A stretch of DNA of 45,662 nucleotides from Candidatus Flavonifractor merdavium (lineage in GTDB: Bacteria; Bacillota; Clostridia; Oscillospirales; Oscillospiraceae). Each line of letters starts with the position of its first letter. The stretch's first letter is position 1. This document shows, piece by piece, positions 4,159 through 41,669 of the stretch. Both the position numbers and the translations under genes were made by a program. The DNA is taken from assembly GCA_019119335.1 (NCBI GenBank), contig DWXF01000035.1, positions 1 through 45,662 on the forward strand, read 5' to 3'. Below the pieces are notes generated by a model. The model was not told where the DNA came from. It saw only the letters and a list, made by a program, of their open reading frames with translations, and did not search any database.

Positions 4159-4163
4159 TGGTA

Positions 4164-4267
4164 CATCATATGACTGACGGATAATGTGGAGCCACCACAT
4201 GGAGTATGATGAGAAAGAAGCCGACCGTCTGGGCGAGGAAAGCCCGGATTGTCGGCTTTTCTTTTTT
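4164..4267 (+). ncRNA. ZTP riboswitch (pfl motif) with overlapping terminator
   Basis: The leader shows the layout of the pfl/ZTP RNA. P1 is formed by CATCATA (4164-4170) and TATGATG (4205-4211). Inside it come the conserved-type segment GACTGACGGATA and a short hairpin TGTGG/CCACA. A purine-rich linker follows, then a 3' domain with CCGACCGTCTGGGC. That 3' hairpin (4218-4258, arms AAGCCGAC and GTCGGCTT) is followed by TTTTCTTTTTTT, so it doubles as the terminator. ZTP binding generally turns such switches on, signalling 10-formyl-THF shortage; PFL makes formate for formyl-THF synthesis. Recognition is from memory of the family consensus, not a covariance search. Confidence 0.88.
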
Positions 4268-24046: not shown

Positions 24047-24721
24047 CTATTCCACCGCCCGGACGTGGAGCACGTCCCCGTCCACCGAGAAGCGCACCTC
24101 CAGCCCGGCGAAGGCCATGCCGTACACCCGCTCCGGATCGTGCTGGTAGGAGGGCCGGGGGTCCCGGGACAGCACCCCCGCCAGGGCCTCCCGCTTGTCC
24201 TCCGGTACCTTGTCCAGCAGCTCCGCCGGGAAATCCACCTCCAGCACCTTGCCCCCCACGTTGCCGGTAAAGCCCCCCAGAGCCTCCGGGTGGGAATCGG
24301 CGTAGGGGAGATAGGGCTTTATGTCCAGAATGGGGGTGCCGTCCATCAGATCCGCCCCCGCCACCACCAGCACATGACCCAGCTCCGGGTCCTTTTCCAT
24401 GCCCACCAGACGCACGCAGGACAGGCCGATGGGGTTGGGCCGGAAAGGGGAGCGGGTGGCGAACACCCCCATGCGGGTGTTGCCCCCCAGCCGGGGGGGC
24501 CGCACCGTGGGGGACCAGGTATCCCGCACCGCCTGGGAAAACTGCCAGATCAGCCACAGGTGGGAGAATTCCTCCAGCCCCCGCAGGGCGTCGGGGTTGC
24601 GGTAGTCCGGCTCAAAGACCACCGTGGCGCGCAAATCCTCCACCAGCCCGCTCTGCCGGGGTATGCCGAACTTGGTGGGAAAGTCGCTGCGGATGCGGGC
24701 GATGATGTGCATGGGGATCAT
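24047..24721 (-). CDS. trmO: tRNA (N6-threonylcarbamoyladenosine(37)-N6)-methyltransferase TrmO
   Basis: A 224-residue TsaA/UPF0066 protein. These SAM enzymes methylate t6A37 in some tRNAs, fine-tuning decoding. Conserved stretches are IARIRSDFPTKFGIPRQSGLV at the N-terminus, FSHLWLIWQFS, and the family signature ATRSPFRPNPIGLSCVRLVG, then LDIKPYLPYAD. The start (ATG 24719-24721) overlaps the stop codon of the upstream GTPase-nuclease gene by 4 bp, so the two translation-related proteins are probably made together. Confidence 0.92.
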   Translation of the reverse strand: MIPMHIIARIRSDFPTKFGIPRQSGLVEDLRATVVFEPDYRNPDALRGLEEFSHLWLIWQFSQAVRDTWSPTVRPPRLGGNTRMGVFATRSPFRPNPIGLSCVRLVGMEKDPELGHVLVVAGADLMDGTPILDIKPYLPYADSHPEALGGFTGNVGGKVLEVDFPAELLDKVPEDKREALAGVLSRDPRPSYQHDPERVYGMAFAGLEVRFSVDGDVLHVRAVE

Positions 24722-27345
24722 CTGTTTCGTTCCTCCTGTGCCTTTTTCAGAGCGGCCTCCACCGGCCGGGACTTTGTGGGCTTGTTGAGCTGCTTCAGCA
24801 GGGCGGCGATCTGCCCGGACACCTGCTCCACCTCCGCCTTGAAGGTGGTGGCCGACAGCCGCAGGGCCCCGTGGCCCAGGATGATGAGCTGCTCCGCCCC
24901 GTCGGAGGTGGCCACCCGTACCCGGTGGTGCTTTCCGATCTCATAGGTGGCCCGCTCGATATAGGTGTCGGCGGTCTCAGCCTCTTTGGTATATACCACA
25001 TAGATATTGTGGTATTTGTATATGTCCTGAACGCTGCGGGGGACCTTGTAGGCGTCAAACACCAGGATCACCACGCACTTTTTAAACCCCTGGTAGTTGC
25101 TCAGCAGGTCCATCAGCATCTGGCGGGCGGCGTCCAGGTTGGTCTGGGCCACCTGTTTCAGTTCCTCCCAGGCGAAGATGATGTTGTACCCGTCCACCAG
25201 CAGGTACTCCGGCCCCCTGATCTGGGTCTGGACGTTGTACTTCTTGTCGTCCAGGCTGGTGCGGGCGGGCTTGGGGGGCGGGGCGAAGGCCCGGCGCTCC
25301 ACCTTGCCGTAGGTCCGCTCAAAGATGGCCAGCAGCTCCTTGTCCTGCTCCAGGGACAGCCCCCGGTCCATCGGGCGGGCGGGCCGGGGAGCGGGAGCCG
25401 CCTCCTCCGGCGGCGGGGCGTCCAGGGACAGGCCGCTGTCCACGTGGGCCATCTCCTTCACCTGATCCCACTTCACGTTGTACCCCGCCCCATGGGCGCA
25501 GAACACCGAGCCGGTGGGGTTGTCCACGTCCCGCTCCGGGTCGTAGCCCATGGCCTCCACCACAGCCTGCTGGTCATGACAGGGGAAGTAGCCCTTTAGG
25601 GAGCAGCTCAGCCGCCCCATGCCCCTGGTGTAGGCGGCCACCTCCCGGCCGTAGTCCCGCAGGCCCGCCACCGGAGCGGCTCCGGTGAGCACGGTGGTTT
25701 CCCCGGCGGTCTCCGGCGGGTCGCAGTCGCCCCCCATCCGCTGGATGTCGCTCATGGCCCGGCCCACCTGGGGGGCGGGCACCTCCAGCCGAAAGGCGTA
25801 CCAGGGCTCCAGCAGGATATTTTCCGCCTCCATCAGTCCCTGGCGCACCGCCCGGTAGGTGGCCTGCCGGAAGTCACCCCCCTCGGTGTGCTTCAGGTGG
25901 GCCCGTCCCGCCAGCAGGGTGAGCTTCACGTCGGTAAGGGGGGAGCCGGTGAGCACCCCCGGGTGGGCCCGCTCGGCCAGGTGGGTGAGGATGAGCCGCT
26001 GCCAGTTCCGGTCCAGCACGTCCTCCGGACAGGCGGTGGCCAGCTCCACGCCGCTGCCCCGCTCTCCCGGCTCGATGAGCAGATGCACCTCGGCGTAGTG
26101 CCGCAGAGGCTCGTAGTGGCCCACCCCGATGACGGGGGCGGCGATGGTCTCCCGGTATACGATACCCCCCTGACCGAAGGATACCTTCAGGTCAAACCGC
26201 TCCCGGATCAGCCGCTGCAGGATCTCCAGCTGGACCTCCCCCATCAGCTGGGCGTGGATCTCCTGCAAGCGCTCATTCCACACCAGATGGAGCTGGGGGT
26301 CCTCCTCCTCCAGCTGGCGCAGCTTTTGCAGGGCGGTCACCGGGTCCTGGCCTTGGGGCAGCTCCACCCGGTAGGTGAGCACCGGCGTCAGGGCGGGGGG
26401 CGTTCCCTCCCCCTCGAAGCCCAGGCCCTGGCCCGCGGCGGCGGCGCTCAGACCGGTAACCGCCACGACGCTTCCCGCCGGGGCCTCCTCCGCCAGTTGG
26501 AATTTCCGGCCGGAGTACACCCGCAGCTGGTCGGCCTTGTCCTGCCAGCCGGGGCCCTCCAGCAGAGTCTTGACCTTTAAACTGCCGCCGGTAATTTTCA
26601 TCCAGACCAGCCGGGCGCCCTGTTCGTCCCGGGAGATCTTGAAGATCCGGGCGCCGAAGTCGGTGGGGTACGCCGGCCGGGGGGCGTACTGCTCCAGCCC
26701 CTGGAGAAAGTCCGCCACCCCCTCCAGGCGTAGGGCCGAGCCGAACCAGCAGGGGAACAGCTTTCGCCGGGCGATGAGGGCGGTGAGGGCGGCGTCGGGC
26801 ACCGAGCCGTGCTCCAGATAGTCCTCCAGCAGGCCCTCGTCGCACAATGCGGCCTGCTCGTACAGGGCGGGCTTGTCCAGGAAGTGGGCGCACCCCTCGT
26901 CCAGCTGGTCCCGCAGCTGGGCCAGCAGTTCCCCCCGATCCGCCCCCGGCAGGTCCATTTTGTTGATAAAGAGGAAGGTGGGCACCTGATACCGCTCCAG
27001 CAGCCTCCACAGGGTATGGGTGTGGCCCTGGACCCCGTCGCTGCCGCTGACCACCAGAATGGCGCAGTCCAGCACCGAGAGGGTGCGCTCCATCTCGGCG
27101 GAGAAGTCCACGTGTCCCGGGGTGTCCAGCAGGGTGAGCTCCACCGTCTCCAGCGGGAGCACCGCCTGCTTGGAGAAAATGGTGATCCCCCGCTCCTTCT
27201 CCATGGGATCGGTGTCCAGAAAGGCGTCCCCGTGGTCCACCCGGCCCAGCTTTTTCAGTTTTCCGCAGGCGTAGAGCAGCCCCTCGCTGAGGGTGGTCTT
27301 TCCCGCGTCCACGTGGGCCAGGATGCCCACAGCCAGTTTTTCCAT
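24718..27345 (-). CDS. Tet(M)-like ribosomal GTPase fused to a C-terminal NYN (Rae1/YacP-like) endonuclease domain
   Basis: An 875-residue protein. Residues 1-640 resemble ribosomal-protection proteins and EF-G: P-loop AHVDAGKTT (10-18), TIFSKQ switch I, DTPGH (74-78), NKMD (128-131), then domains II-V. After a proline-rich linker (about 645-710), residues 714-875 form a NYN/PIN-like domain with the acidic residues expected for catalysis: D718 (VDGYN), D764 (VFDAYK), D793 (ETADTYIE) and D815 (TSDG). Rae1 of Bacillus is a nuclease cutting mRNA in the ribosomal A site. The tip-loop YSPVST that Tet(M) uses against tetracycline is not present (GRAHLKHTEGGDFR instead), arguing against simple resistance. 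Downstream partner trmO. Confidence 0.88.
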   Translation of the reverse strand: MEKLAVGILAHVDAGKTTLSEGLLYACGKLKKLGRVDHGDAFLDTDPMEKERGITIFSKQAVLPLETVELTLLDTPGHVDFSAEMERTLSVLDCAILVVSGSDGVQGHTHTLWRLLERYQVPTFLFINKMDLPGADRGELLAQLRDQLDEGCAHFLDKPALYEQAALCDEGLLEDYLEHGSVPDAALTALIARRKLFPCWFGSALRLEGVADFLQGLEQYAPRPAYPTDFGARIFKISRDEQGARLVWMKITGGSLKVKTLLEGPGWQDKADQLRVYSGRKFQLAEEAPAGSVVAVTGLSAAAAGQGLGFEGEGTPPALTPVLTYRVELPQGQDPVTALQKLRQLEEEDPQLHLVWNERLQEIHAQLMGEVQLEILQRLIRERFDLKVSFGQGGIVYRETIAAPVIGVGHYEPLRHYAEVHLLIEPGERGSGVELATACPEDVLDRNWQRLILTHLAERAHPGVLTGSPLTDVKLTLLAGRAHLKHTEGGDFRQATYRAVRQGLMEAENILLEPWYAFRLEVPAPQVGRAMSDIQRMGGDCDPPETAGETTVLTGAAPVAGLRDYGREVAAYTRGMGRLSCSLKGYFPCHDQQAVVEAMGYDPERDVDNPTGSVFCAHGAGYNVKWDQVKEMAHVDSGLSLDAPPPEEAAPAPRPARPMDRGLSLEQDKELLAIFERTYGKVERRAFAPPPKPARTSLDDKKYNVQTQIRGPEYLLVDGYNIIFAWEELKQVAQTNLDAARQMLMDLLSNYQGFKKCVVILVFDAYKVPRSVQDIYKYHNIYVVYTKEAETADTYIERATYEIGKHHRVRVATSDGAEQLIILGHGALRLSATTFKAEVEQVSGQIAALLKQLNKPTKSRPVEAALKKAQEERNR

Positions 27346-36822: not shown

Positions 36823-38256
36823 TTAACGGCTACTGATTTTAGTACCTGCAGTATAGATTGCCTCTGCCAGACATTCGGAGGCCTTCACCTTGGCCTCCTC
36901 GATGGCATGAGCATATACTTTAGCTGTTGTTGTAGGGTCTGCATGGCCTAAAATAGACGCTACTGTTACGATGTCCACCCCGTTGGCAATCAGCAGAGAG
37001 GCCGCACAATGCCGGAATGCGTGGGCATGTACACCCTGCAGGCCATATTTCTTTGAAAAACGATTCAGCCACAGAGTAATGCTTTCTGGGTTGCTTGGCT
37101 TTCCATCCGGTTGCGCAAATAGATATCCTTGGCGGTCATAGGCCGGACCGGCAGCAAAAATTAACTCCAGCTGTTCCGCACGATATTGCCTTAAAAGAGA
37201 CACTACCTCTTGGGGAATCTTTACGGATCGGACAGTTTTGGTTTTTGTGCTGTCCAGAAATATCCCCCGCTCCGGTGTGTAGCTTAACGAATGTTCAATC
37301 TTGATAATCCCATTTTGGAAATCAACATGATCCCATTTTAGCGCCGCAATTTCACCCCGACGGGCCCCGGTGAGCGCTAGCAAGTTTACTATGAGGCGCC
37401 ACTTTAATGGTTCATGAGATAGGCACTCAAAAATGTGGGCCAATTCCTCCGGCTGGATAGCAGACACTTCTTTGTCCTTTGCCTCTGGCCGATCTGCCCG
37501 GTTTACTGGATTATCCTTAACAATTCCCTTCTTTACAGCAGAATGGAATACACCGCCGATGAAGTGAGAATAGAGGAGTATAGTTTTTTCCGACAGGCCG
37601 CTATGGATTGCTGTAATTTTGAACAACTCGCCAATATCTTCGCACAGTTCATTGGCTATTTTTTTAGCCGTGGCCCGCGTGGTGGGCGCCCCGTGAATCG
37701 TCTTGCTCATGGAACTTTTGCTGATTTTACACCGCCTAGCAAGCTCCGCACCACTAATTCCTGCCCGCTCCATTGCCTGCTTGACGGATTCCGTATTGGC
37801 CCGGATATCCTCTTTTCGGATTCTGGATCCCTCACGCCGGAGCCGATCATAAAACGCCTCTATGGCTTCCGGGGTAACTTCATTCAGTGGGAGATTCCCA
37901 AAATCATCCATAATTCTGTCAAGCAGCCGCCGGTATCCGGTGGCTGTTCTGCTTTTATACTCCCCAGAGCGTTCCCGCCGGTCAATCAGTTCCTTTGCAT
38001 AGGCGGAGAAACTCTGGCGGCTGGCATGGCTATTGGTATTGGTAACACTGTCCCCCAACTCTACCTTAATCCGCTCAATTTCCTTTTTGATTTCACGTTT
38101 ATTCATACCCGCTCGCGGCGTAAATGTCTTATAGCGGCGCCGCTGCTTTCCGGTGCGCGGATCTATGCCCCGGCTGACTGTCACCTGGTAGGCTGTGGAC
38201 CCGTCGGCATTCTGGATTACTTTAACGCCCGTGATCCCATCAAGAATGCTGGCCAT
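36823..38256 (-). CDS. int: Tyrosine-type integrase with an embedded XRE-like helix-turn-helix
   Basis: A 477-residue phage integrase. An N-terminal arm-binding region (1-70) and core-binding domain start (82-145) are followed by an insert at about 156-212 that reads as an XRE-type HTH (AMERAGISGAELARRCKISKSSMSK). The catalytic domain comes after, with the full set R299 (TGARRGE), a lysine near 338-340, H412-x-x-R415, H438 and Y448. The protein is about 80-100 residues longer than usual, matching the insert. It overlaps the upstream repressor gene by 17 bp. Confidence 0.93.
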   Translation of the reverse strand: MASILDGITGVKVIQNADGSTAYQVTVSRGIDPRTGKQRRRYKTFTPRAGMNKREIKKEIERIKVELGDSVTNTNSHASRQSFSAYAKELIDRRERSGEYKSRTATGYRRLLDRIMDDFGNLPLNEVTPEAIEAFYDRLRREGSRIRKEDIRANTESVKQAMERAGISGAELARRCKISKSSMSKTIHGAPTTRATAKKIANELCEDIGELFKITAIHSGLSEKTILLYSHFIGGVFHSAVKKGIVKDNPVNRADRPEAKDKEVSAIQPEELAHIFECLSHEPLKWRLIVNLLALTGARRGEIAALKWDHVDFQNGIIKIEHSLSYTPERGIFLDSTKTKTVRSVKIPQEVVSLLRQYRAEQLELIFAAGPAYDRQGYLFAQPDGKPSNPESITLWLNRFSKKYGLQGVHAHAFRHCAASLLIANGVDIVTVASILGHADPTTTAKVYAHAIEEAKVKASECLAEAIYTAGTKISSR

Positions 38257-38833
38257 TTCTTCCCTCTCCTTCTTGATTCACTATTTTATCCAAGGTTTTT
38301 TTCAAGGATTCAACACCAGCTTCATACCAGTGTCTGGCGCACTCGGAATGTGTAGATATAACAAATCCATGTGCCTCTAATTCCTGGCGATATGCATACA
38401 GCTTAGAATTTCCCCAATCATCAAGAGACGGGTTGTCTCGCCTGCTTTCATTGATATACCGGGATATGCAAGCTAAAAATGACGAAAACTCCACCTCCTC
38501 TACGAGCGAACTTAAAACGCTCTGCAGAGGTCCGTAGACTTTAAGATGCTCCACCGCTTTTCCGGATAAACCCGTTTCCTTGCATACCTCGCTATGGGCG
38601 GAAACATGGCCACGCAAGATGAAATCACAATCCACGTCGAAATAGTTGGCAAGGCGAACAATCATATCAAGGCTAAATTTGTTCCTTCCTCCTTCCAGTT
38701 TTGCATAAGTAGACCGTGCCACGCCGAGAGCGTTTGCTACTGCCTCTTGCTTTTCGCCGCGATCTATACGTAGTTGCTTTATTCTCCCGCAGATTGCCGC
38801 ATCGTCAGCGCCTAAATTTGCACGATTTTCCAT
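38240..38833 (-). CDS. CI-like XRE repressor
   Basis: A 197-residue protein. The N-terminal HTH (about 15-70: IKQLRIDRGEKQEAVANALGVARSTYAKLEGGRN) is Cro/CI-type. The remaining 120 residues lack a LexA-like Ser-Lys peptidase and are of unknown function; they may serve in dimerisation or induction by another route. It is transcribed toward the integrase and divergently from the early genes, the usual place for a lysogeny repressor. Confidence 0.85.
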   Translation of the reverse strand: MENRANLGADDAAICGRIKQLRIDRGEKQEAVANALGVARSTYAKLEGGRNKFSLDMIVRLANYFDVDCDFILRGHVSAHSEVCKETGLSGKAVEHLKVYGPLQSVLSSLVEEVEFSSFLACISRYINESRRDNPSLDDWGNSKLYAYRQELEAHGFVISTHSECARHWYEAGVESLKKTLDKIVNQEGEGRNGQHS

Positions 38834-38847
38834 AAAACCACCACTTT

Positions 38848-38897
38848 GTTCTGATTAAGAACATAATATTGAAATGTTCTATTTTATCACTTATGAT
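38848..38897. promoter_or_regulatory. Divergent early promoter and repressor operators
   Basis: The plus-strand promoter has TTGAAA (38869-38874) and TATGAT (38892-38897) with 17 bp spacing. Operator-like half-sites overlap it: GTTCT-N5-AGAAC at 38848-38862, and a third GTTCT at 38876-38880 that pairs with AGAACAT. A weaker minus-strand promoter (TATTAT -10 within the same sequence) would drive the repressor gene. Repressor binding here would block the plus promoter. Confidence 0.65.
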
Positions 38898-38953
38898 TGT
38901 ATCATCGGCACACAACAATGTCAACATCAACAACAAAGAATGGAGGAAGAGTA

Positions 38954-39133
38954 ATGAACAATAAGGAAATTCGTGCCGCAATCAGTAACGCAAAGCTTAA
39001 ATATTGGCAAGTTGCGGAGGCTCTTTCTATGAGCGACGGAGCCTTTAGTCGTAAGTTGCGGAAAGAGTTTTCCCCGGAAGAAAAGAAAACTGTGCTTCAG
39101 GTAATTCACAAACTCGCAAAGGAGGCGGTCTAA
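38954..39133 (+). CDS. Small Cro-like DNA-binding protein
   Basis: A 59-residue protein with one helix-turn-helix: EIRAAISNAKLKYWQVAEALSMSDGAFSRKLRKEF. Its place as first gene of the rightward early operon suggests a Cro-type antagonist of the repressor. ATG 38954 follows GGAGGAAGAG; a longer frame from 38897 begins in the promoter and is rejected. Confidence 0.75.
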   Translation: MNNKEIRAAISNAKLKYWQVAEALSMSDGAFSRKLRKEFSPEEKKTVLQVIHKLAKEAV

Positions 39134-39134
39134 G

Positions 39135-39347
39135 ATGCCTGACATGGCCACAATCCGAGCAACGGCCAGACGCCTAAAGGCGGAAGGGATGCCAGTGGCC
39201 GAATACGCCTTACGGCAATGGGTGAAATCAGGGGCGATTCCATCCATACAATGTGGGCAAAAGGCCTTACTCTTCTATCCCAATGTGTTGGCATATCTCC
39301 GGAGTGAAGGCACAAATGGGGGTGTAAATCATGGGTCGGATCGTTGA
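39135..39347 (+). CDS. Small MerR/excisionase-like DNA-binding protein
   Basis: A 70-residue protein with a winged-helix-like pattern (MPVAEYALRQWVKSGAIPSIQCGQKALLFYPNVLAYL), as in excisionases and helix-turn-helix domain proteins of Firmicute elements. AAAGGAGG precedes the ATG by about 8 bp. It could be the excision factor, but many such proteins act only as regulators. Confidence 0.7.
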   Translation: MPDMATIRATARRLKAEGMPVAEYALRQWVKSGAIPSIQCGQKALLFYPNVLAYLRSEGTNGGVNHGSDR

Positions 39348-39687
39348 CTTGCTCCTTGCCGGGCGCGAAAATGCCATACCGTCCAAAGACTTGGCCAAAT
39401 TGGCCGGTCTCTCCAGTGTGCGTGAATTGCAAAGGCTTATTGCGCGTGAACGGGCTGCCGGCGCAGTGATTCTCTCAACTTGCGAAAGCGGCGGCGGCTA
39501 TTTCCGCCCTGCCTGCCAGGAGGAGATCCGGACATTTGTTAGAACATTGGATGCCCGTGCAAAAAACACCAACTGCGCGTTGAGTTCTGCGCGCGCGGCA
39601 CTAGAAGTAGGCAAAAAAGAAGCCGCCCCAGGTGATAGCAGCACCCAGGGCGGCAAGCTGGCGAAATGCCAACCAAAGACACGGTGA
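39331..39687 (+). CDS. Phage HTH protein, function unknown
   Basis: A 118-residue protein overlapping the previous gene by 17 bp. The first half suggests a winged helix (NAIPSKDLAKLAGLSSVRELQRLIARERAAGAVILST), a pattern seen in small regulators of clostridial phages. The C-terminal half is low in hydrophobics and probably flexible. RBS GGGGGTG is present upstream. No specific function can be given. Confidence 0.65.
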   Translation: MGRIVDLLLAGRENAIPSKDLAKLAGLSSVRELQRLIARERAAGAVILSTCESGGGYFRPACQEEIRTFVRTLDARAKNTNCALSSARAALEVGKKEAAPGDSSTQGGKLAKCQPKTR

Positions 39688-39716
39688 TTATATCACCAGA
39701 AACGAGGTTTTACAAG

Positions 39717-41669
39717 ATGGATATAAAGCTACTGCATCTGGCCATAGACAATTTTAAGGGCTGCCAACACCAGGATTTGAATTTTCAAGGGTGCTCCGCT
39801 TCCATCTATGGAGACAACGCCACCGGGAAAACCACAATCTATGACGCCTTTGCCTGGCTGCTGTTCGGCAAGGACAGCCGTGGCCGTGGTGATTTTGAGA
39901 TCAAGCCGCTGGGTCCCAGCGGGCAGGTAGTGGACCACGCTGCCGTTACTGCTGTGGAGGCCATCCTGGAGGTGGACGGTGTCCCGTTCCAACTAAGGAG
40001 AGCCTACTACGAGCGGTGGAGCGTCAAGCGCGGTGGAGGTCAGACCACCTATGACGGCAACACCAGTGAATATTTTGTTGACGGTGTGCCCATGAAAAAA
40101 AGCGAATACGAGAACCGGATCCGGGAACTTGTGAGCGAGGATGTTTTCCGAGTACTTACCAATGTATCTTGGTTTTGTGAGGGGATGGACTGGCGCAGGC
40201 GGCGGGATATGCTATTCCAGGTCTGTGAGTTGCCTGGAGATAAAGACATTATGGCCGCTAATCCGTGCTTTGAGCCGCTGGCGGCCGCCATGGGCGGGCT
40301 TTCCATGGAGGACTACAAACGGAAGATTCAGGCGGAGCGAAAGGGCCTCAACGCGAGCCGGAACACTATTCCCGCCCGACTGGACGAACAGAAAAAGAGC
40401 ATTGAGGCGTTTTCCGGAATTGACTTTCCTGCCATCCGCGCCCGGAGAGATACCACGGCAGCAAAACTGGAGCAACTGCAGGCGGAACTTACAAAGCTGG
40501 GCCACGGCGCGTTGCTGGACGCCAAGCGCAACGAGCTGGCCGCAGCGAGAAATGCCATTGAGGCGGAGATCAACCGCAACACCAGCCACCGGCAGAGCCA
40601 GACGGTCCCGGTGGAGGACCGCCGCCCTGCCATTAAAAGCGCCATGGACAAGGCTGCCGCCGAGGCCGCCCGCTGGCGGCGCATGGCTGCTGGAGAGGAA
40701 AATACCATTGGGGACCTGGAGGCAAAAATACAGGCTTGCCGCGATTCCTGGGCGGTTGAGAATGCGAGGAGTTTCCAGACGAAAAACTGCCCCACTTGCG
40801 GCCAAACGCTTCCTGAGGCTGCCCTGAGGGCCGCGCGTGACCGTTTCGAGGCAGACAAGAAGAAATCTCTGCAGGAAGCCGTAGACCGCGCCAACGATGC
40901 CAAGTCTTCCCTGGCTGCCGCCCGTGGGCGCCGGGAGGAGTACATACAGGCCGCCATCGGCATGGAGAGTGAGGCCGGCAGGCTGAGGGCAGAGCTGGAG
41001 GCATACCAACCGGAAGCGCAGCCGGAGATTCTGGATCTGCCCGGCCACACGGAGAGACTGGCCGCCGCCGAGGAAAAGGCCCGCTCCCTGGCCGCCGAGG
41101 TGGAGCGGCTGGAGGGCGAAACAGCCGCCATCCAGGCGGAAAGTACCGCCAGGGTGGGCACGCTGCAGGCCGAAGTGGAGGCACTGAATGGAGAGCTGGC
41201 AAAGGAGGCCATGCTTACCTTTGCGCGGCGGAGGTCTGATGAACTGCGGGAGGAGGCCCGGAAAGCGGCCACGGCCCTCGATGAAGTTGATCGGATGCTG
41301 TTCCTCTGCGAGGAATTCGCCCGGCACAAAGTCCGCTATGTGGAGGACGCTATCAACAGTCGGTTCCAGTTGATCCGTTGGAAACTCTACGACCAGCAGG
41401 TAAATGGCGGTCTGGCGGACTGCTGCGAGGCAACGGTGAACGGCGTTCCCTACGCCGCGCTGAACAACGGCGGGCGTATCAACGCCGGTCTGGATGTGAT
41501 CGGCGCCCTGTCCAGCTATTACGGCGTGGGAGTGCCGCTGTTTATCGACAACGCGGAATCGGTTACCCGGCTGCTGCCGATGGACGGACAGGTGATCCGG
41601 CTGGTGGTCAGCAATGCAGATAAGGAATTGAGGTGCGAATATGGCGCTCAAAGTAAAAGATCGAGCTAA
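39717..41669 (+). CDS. SbcC/Rad50-like AAA ATPase with zinc hook
   Basis: A 650-residue ATPase. Walker A is YGDNATGKTT near residue 36. A long coiled coil (about 200-540) has a central zinc hook CPTCGQTL near residue 357. The C-terminal part has the family end FIDNAESVTRLLP, the likely Walker B region. Similar proteins in phage early modules take part in DNA recombination or repair. No Mre11-like nuclease is adjacent; the MBL-fold protein two genes down is a possible partner. Start at ATG 39717 with CGAGG; the earlier in-frame ATG 39666 lacks a site. Confidence 0.85.
   Translation: MDIKLLHLAIDNFKGCQHQDLNFQGCSASIYGDNATGKTTIYDAFAWLLFGKDSRGRGDFEIKPLGPSGQVVDHAAVTAVEAILEVDGVPFQLRRAYYERWSVKRGGGQTTYDGNTSEYFVDGVPMKKSEYENRIRELVSEDVFRVLTNVSWFCEGMDWRRRRDMLFQVCELPGDKDIMAANPCFEPLAAAMGGLSMEDYKRKIQAERKGLNASRNTIPARLDEQKKSIEAFSGIDFPAIRARRDTTAAKLEQLQAELTKLGHGALLDAKRNELAAARNAIEAEINRNTSHRQSQTVPVEDRRPAIKSAMDKAAAEAARWRRMAAGEENTIGDLEAKIQACRDSWAVENARSFQTKNCPTCGQTLPEAALRAARDRFEADKKKSLQEAVDRANDAKSSLAAARGRREEYIQAAIGMESEAGRLRAELEAYQPEAQPEILDLPGHTERLAAAEEKARSLAAEVERLEGETAAIQAESTARVGTLQAEVEALNGELAKEAMLTFARRRSDELREEARKAATALDEVDRMLFLCEEFARHKVRYVEDAINSRFQLIRWKLYDQQVNGGLADCCEATVNGVPYAALNNGGRINAGLDVIGALSSYYGVGVPLFIDNAESVTRLLPMDGQVIRLVVSNADKELRCEYGAQSKRSS

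Follow-up and report, generated by a model that had tools for sequence, protein, structure and literature searches.

A 45,662-nucleotide contig of Candidatus Flavonifractor merdavium (DWXF01000035.1, assembly GCA_019119335.1), referred to here in its full length as the window, contains a gene that joins an EF-G-family translational GTPase to a Rae1/YacP-type NYN endonuclease domain. The gene starts with ATG, and the list of open reading frames (ORFs) gives an 875-amino-acid frame at exactly 24718..27345 on the minus strand, where the first-pass annotation had described a fusion in one uninterrupted gene of 875 codons. The gene and its parts are as follows.

24718..27345 (−): fused GTPase-NYN gene, 875 codons and stop (ORF list, Pfam, homologue clusters)
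26680..27336 (−): GTPase (G) domain, GTP_EFTU, residues 4-222 (Pfam, 171 bits; all motif residues intact)
26428..26658 (−): EF-G domain II, EF-G_D2, residues 230-306 (Pfam, 21.1 bits, below the cut-off of 27)
26173..26388 (−): EF-G domain III, EFG_III, residues 320-391 (Pfam)
25825..26163 (−): EF-G domain IV, EFG_IV, residues 395-507 (Pfam)
25867..25908 (−): domain IV tip (loop III), residues 480-493, GRAHLKHTEGGDFR (alignment)
25570..25815 (−): EF-G domain V, EFG_C, residues 511-592 (Pfam)
25444..25623 (−): C-terminal extension, residues 575-634, with the motif GYxPCH...NPTGSVFCxHG...V.W..V...H
25207..25443 (−): linker, residues 635-713, mostly predicted to be disordered, with one helix at 666-679
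24730..25203 (−): NYN_YacP (Rae1) endonuclease domain, residues 715-872 (Pfam, 167.4 bits, cut-off 24.6)

Both Pfam domains, GTPase and NYN, were found in 120/120 protein clusters among those listed (7986 scored). At least 10 of these clusters, the window's own included, showed 98-100% identity at 875 amino acids. Close homologues with a named source are a "translation factor GTPase family protein" of Intestinimonas massiliensis (91%) and an "NYN domain-containing protein" of Flavonifractor sp. (90%), and the window protein aligned end to end with 20 fused genes from other genomes. The clusters and the relatives aligning over the full length rule out a sequencing error or a chance join of two genes, and the fusion stands as first described. 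Its standing as a new architecture does not: excerpts of Atkinson 2015 (PMC4342817) report Tet proteins of ten Clostridiales species with a YacP-like NYN domain and suggest an RNase-based resistance. These proteins have the same order as the window protein, an EF2-family GTPase followed by a YacP-like NYN, a likeness of architecture. The same excerpts treat them as Tet proteins that might act in resistance, whereas the window GTPase lies outside Tet(M)/Tet(W), as set out below.

With intact GTPase motifs and EF-G domains III-V, the N-terminal half of the protein qualifies as an EF2-family translational GTPase. Residues D13, T17, T18, T55, H78, K129 and D131 were invariant in 68/68 fused sequences and N128 was kept in 66 of the 68, in agreement with the first-pass annotation, and H483 in the domain IV tip aligns with H573 of Thermus EF-G. 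In a structure search this half was matched by EF-G and TetM folds (Tet(M)/Tet(O) over 610 residues); the list of matches was filled by EF-G-type chains, and the fold assignment of the NYN half rests on sequence. Compared with EF-G and EF-G2-type paralogues, the fusion has a shorter loop I than EF-G, a Tet-like C-terminal extension and the NYN domain.

Like Tet(M) and Tet(O), the fusion has EF-G domains I-V and a C-terminal extension. It differs from them in loop III, in carrying an NYN domain, and by an insertion in the C-terminal extension, and its GTPase is 26-29% identical to tet genes on plasmids. The Tet model NF012153 gave 369.7 bits against a curated cut-off of 775. The tip YSPVST of Tet(M) is replaced by KHTEGG in the window protein (one sequence each of Tet(M) and Tet(W) served for comparison), and both GTPase trees placed the family in a clade apart from Tet(M) and Tet(W), the sole two Tet rows used. 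Membership of the Tet(M) family is ruled out by the score, the identity, the separate clade and the tip, and by these comparisons the GTPase forms a separate family. The earlier label "Tet(M)-like" is loose.

The first-pass annotation also held that replacement of the tip made drug release unlikely. The replacement is as described, but the tip alone does not exclude drug release, because triple loop-III mutants of Tet(M) can retain activity according to excerpts of PMC4750697. We also considered whether the tip loop had changed together with the fusion. This was rejected, since unfused Bifidobacterium genes and basal unfused genes share an AHxKHTEGG-like tip; among the unfused relatives, the Lactobacillaceae alone clearly differ from this form, which the fused genes carry. 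Two unfused Oscillospiraceae GTPases (L147, L148) have an altered P-loop, AQVDGGKTT (vs AHVDAGKTT).

The C-terminal domain is clearly assigned to the Rae1 family by its score to NYN_YacP, well above the Pfam cut-off, by an expect value (E) of 9e-24 to the B. subtilis YacP structures 5mq8/5mq9, and by its catalytic acids. D718, D764, D793, E797 and D815 align with D7, D53, D81, E85 and D104 of B. subtilis YacP/Rae1 (numbers hand-counted on the alignment), so the fused NYN has the same acidic residues as that enzyme. The earlier observation of the expected acidic residues extends to close homologues, where their loss would have spoken against the proposal: all five were kept in 80/80 fused NYN domains, and seven further divergent fused genes also retain them as judged by eye. 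The 33 "stand-alone" rows of this count include one fragment of a broken fusion (L115); L084 was too short and was left out.

Rae1 of the B. subtilis type is a free protein of about 170 amino acids, encoded beside rlmB and often ending in an EKWRRG tail; the window NYN is fused, relocated and lacks the tail. KWRR was found within the last 30 residues of 13/32 free NYNs and 0/80 fused NYNs (L001, L009, L115 and L084 were dropped from this count, and some fused tails, L086 and L089, end at contig ends). In B. subtilis Rae1 the KWRR motif contains R166. Excerpts of PMC6613710 list R166P among efp suppressors, in which the authors consider that yacO or rae1 had lost its function. We read the loss of the tail motif in fused NYNs as a sign that recruitment may have been taken over by the GTPase.

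The linker between the two halves is 62-142 residues long in fused sequences, with a median of 80, and has 79 residues in the window protein. Two AlphaFold2 models gave a predicted local distance difference test score (pLDDT) of 73.1 with a predicted template modelling score (pTM) of 0.50, and a pLDDT of 82.8 with a pTM of 0.59. In the second model the linker falls under pLDDT 50 and is predicted to be disordered except for the helix at 666-679. A short linker motif, possibly a docking peptide, recurs in two versions (approximately DKEL..IF..TYG and EEID.I...TFYANQGKK) and overlaps the one predicted helix.

We searched for the two parts across genomes in three samples; each genome was counted singly, with relatedness uncorrected. 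The assembly to which the window belongs is 81.6% complete, and the fusion is its one NYN_YacP match. In the family sample (150 genomes) the GTPase, detected by its C-terminal extension motif as the marker of the family (E under 1e-15), was found in 102 genomes; 99 of these had an NYN, three had the GTPase alone, and an NYN never occurred in the absence of the GTPase. The gene was other than one long ORF in G505 (off contig ends), G436 (602 amino acids) and G484 (two frames). In the family NYN search 25/100 rows count a stop inside the match, probably from the profile running past the gene end, as was seen for L035. Of the 147 genomes in the order sample, 55 had the GTPase and 51 an NYN, and all 51 were among the 55.

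The phylum sample covered 398 genomes, of which 219 match NYN_YacP at E 0.001 and 215 lie above the Pfam cut-off. The GTPase was found in 34 (E up to 1e-18), fused in 28 and unfused in six. Among the 150 NYN rows listed, 22 lay in fused-length ORFs (874-914 amino acids) and 128 in ORFs of 169-302 amino acids by hand count; six further fused genomes were found by the C-terminal extension search and read individually. Every fused genome (28/28) had exactly one NYN match. Of the six with an unfused GTPase, four have a separate NYN and two lie outside the genomes with an NYN match. Two NYN matches each were present in two non-fused genomes, G205 and G300. A second, short match to the C-terminal extension (G367:C4:59018-59239, a 220-amino-acid ORF) occurs in a genome that also has a full fusion.

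Free rae1 was adjacent to rlmB in 32/32 stand-alone loci that were read, a non-random set of 8 best matches, 20 chosen loci and 4 from Lactobacillaceae. This adjacency is a trait of the locus and does not belong to the enzyme itself. In the fusion's genome rae1 was not found beside rlmB, where another gene follows. The single NYN in 28/28 fused phylum genomes, and the constant company of NYN and GTPase in the family (99/99) and order (51/51) samples, indicate that stand-alone Rae1 has given way to the fusion in this lineage and no longer sits next to rlmB. Because the fusion has replaced stand-alone Rae1, the earlier tie to A-site mRNA cutting gains support.

In a tree of 113 NYN domains the fused NYNs group together (89 by the Shimodaira-Hasegawa-like approximate likelihood ratio test, SH-aLRT). 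The only "stand-alone" row inside this group comes from a broken fusion, and two genomes of the same class supply the free NYNs nearest to the group. The GTPase tree begins with unfused genes of other Bacillota and some Oscillospirales (82 and 89), followed by the fused genes; the unfused genes of Lactobacillaceae and Bifidobacterium branch from within the fused Oscillospiraceae genes (94 and 98). In this tree L166 carries the label unfused, given by a strict pattern, yet proved to be fused on reading. An earlier GTPase tree, which left out L067, L073 and L105 and for which L063, L096, L121 and L122 yielded no ORF by pattern, gave similar branching. All trees are rapid builds in which many supports lie at 80-95, and a long branch leads to the EF-G outgroup, which leaves the root unsure. 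The simplest history would be one fusion, then one loss of the NYN on horizontal transfer to Bifidobacterium/Lactobacillaceae. The unfused relatives from these groups (L040, L043-L056, L085, L090, L065, L069) belong to the fusion's GTPase family, and one unfused relative lies on a Ligilactobacillus plasmid, where it is recorded as a TetM/TetW/TetO/TetS-family resistance protein.

Upstream of the fusion gene lies a divergent pyruvate phosphate dikinase gene, and trmO follows downstream with a 4-base overlap. Among 131 flanking ORFs taken from 110 loci, recurring neighbours formed just two clusters, of 5 and 4; the comparison took the longest same-strand ORF, which in the window was a spurious ORF chosen over trmO, and is a weak test. 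It lends weak support to the view that no conserved operon surrounds the fusion. Elsewhere in the window, G+C content drops to about 0.50-0.60 at 36826-41666. This stretch carries a phage-type integrase (36826-38256, minus strand) and an AAA_23/SMC-like ATPase (39666-41666, plus strand) and is probably an integrated mobile element. A ZMP/ZTP riboswitch (RF01750) was found at 4160-4241 on the plus strand with 58.9 bits.

SmrB-type collision nucleases cut mRNA in or beside stalled ribosomes. We know of no SmrB-type nuclease or RelE-type toxin that has a translational GTPase in the same chain. RelE-type A-site toxins cut mRNA in or beside stalled ribosomes, and Rae1 is described as an A-site endoribonuclease (excerpts of PMC12320835, for Rae1 also of PMC6613710); the binding sites of factors resembling the GTPase half reach the A site (excerpts of PMC8161019). 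S1025 is named as a Rae1 site in excerpts of PMC11780869. We see an even chance that this protein, an EF-G-family GTPase fused to the sole Rae1-family NYN found in its assembly, docks on paused ribosomes by way of the GTPase and then cuts the mRNA in the A site with the tethered NYN.

A fuller version, offered tentatively and as a possibility, is a GTP-driven A-site cleavage and rescue factor of an EF-G-like family distinct from Tet, which would have replaced free Rae1 across Oscillospirales and relatives and in which, on one and the same ribosome, domain IV would clear the A site and leave a codon exposed for the NYN to cut. In the even-chance reading the GTPase half would bind the factor site in the manner of EF-G and Tet(M), domain IV facing the decoding centre, and would provide the recruitment that stand-alone Rae1 manages alone; recruitment by the GTPase would fit the loss of the C-terminal KWRR motif in fused NYNs. 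GTP hydrolysis would then move domain IV out, and the NYN, tethered by some 80 linker residues, would reach the vacated A-site mRNA and cut it. Docking and hydrolysis are put before cleavage because domain IV and the NYN could hardly share the A site. The tmRNA/SmpB system would free the ribosome, and the mRNA would decay; SmpB is encoded in the same genome as the fusion.

Several observations weigh against A-site cutting by the fusion. Domain IV and the NYN would probably compete for the A site, and neither AlphaFold2 model fixes the NYN relative to the GTPase (best pTM 0.59). KWRR is missing in 19/32 free NYNs too and is not a strict family mark, and a looser tail pattern was present in 15/32 free and 2/80 fused NYNs. 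In the family sample 48/150 genomes have neither the GTPase nor an NYN, so the function of the fusion would be dispensable. The GTPase occurs without an NYN in Lactobacillaceae, Bifidobacterium, some Bacilli and some Oscillospirales, so it is useful without the nuclease and has a job of its own. A search of 17 Lactobacillaceae/Bifidobacterium genomes that carry an unfused GTPase showed no NYN in 13 and a free one in four, and the function of the GTPase may therefore be unrelated to mRNA cutting.

In a rather unlikely alternative the two halves would have separate tasks, an EF-G-like factor and Rae1 having been joined only for shared expression or general closeness to the ribosome, with GTP hydrolysis uncoupled from cleavage. 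The long disordered linker (62-142 residues) would suit two halves with separate jobs, as would the later loss of the NYN while the GTPase remained and the four phylum-sample genomes that carry both halves as separate genes. Against it, the fusion is kept across families, no free NYN was regained in the fused or NYN-bearing genomes of the three samples, and fused NYNs are without the tail motif that many free NYNs keep. It is improbable that the protein is a tetracycline ribosomal protection protein with an added RNase as an extra resistance mechanism, the reading put forward in Atkinson 2015: the Tet model score far below its cut-off, the low identity to tet genes, the separate clade in both trees and the KHTEGG tip all speak against this, as does a single copy that is fixed across the lineage and not scattered.

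We give an equally slim chance to the processing of rRNA or tRNA on or near ribosomes by the NYN, with the GTPase sensing ribosome state during maturation. NYN domains have been proposed for rRNA and tRNA maturation (cited in excerpts of PMC4342817), free rae1 adjoins the rRNA methylase gene rlmB in all the loci read, and yacO (rlmB) and rae1 lie in one pathway in B. subtilis (excerpts of PMC6613710). However, Rae1 where studied cuts A-site mRNA, going by the excerpts of PMC6613710 and PMC12320835, and the gene is missing in many related genomes, unlike core rRNA maturation enzymes.

No functional study of a GTPase-NYN fusion was found in a search of the open-licence literature. As far as that search goes, the replacement of free Rae1, the single origin followed by loss, the distinction from Tet and the missing tail motif of fused NYNs are new; going by its title, a 2018 survey of Rae1 distribution may have described the fusion before. 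Records of Agathobacter and Ligilactobacillus proteins as "TetM/TetW/TetO/TetS family" would, we suggest, refer to a different family, and the name alone should not be taken as a resistance call. The fusion bears on how Rae1 finds the ribosomes that it cuts. Rae1 is here tied to a factor that very probably binds the factor site of the ribosome, with no free copy left. This tie would make the trigger of A-site mRNA cleavage directly testable in common Clostridia.

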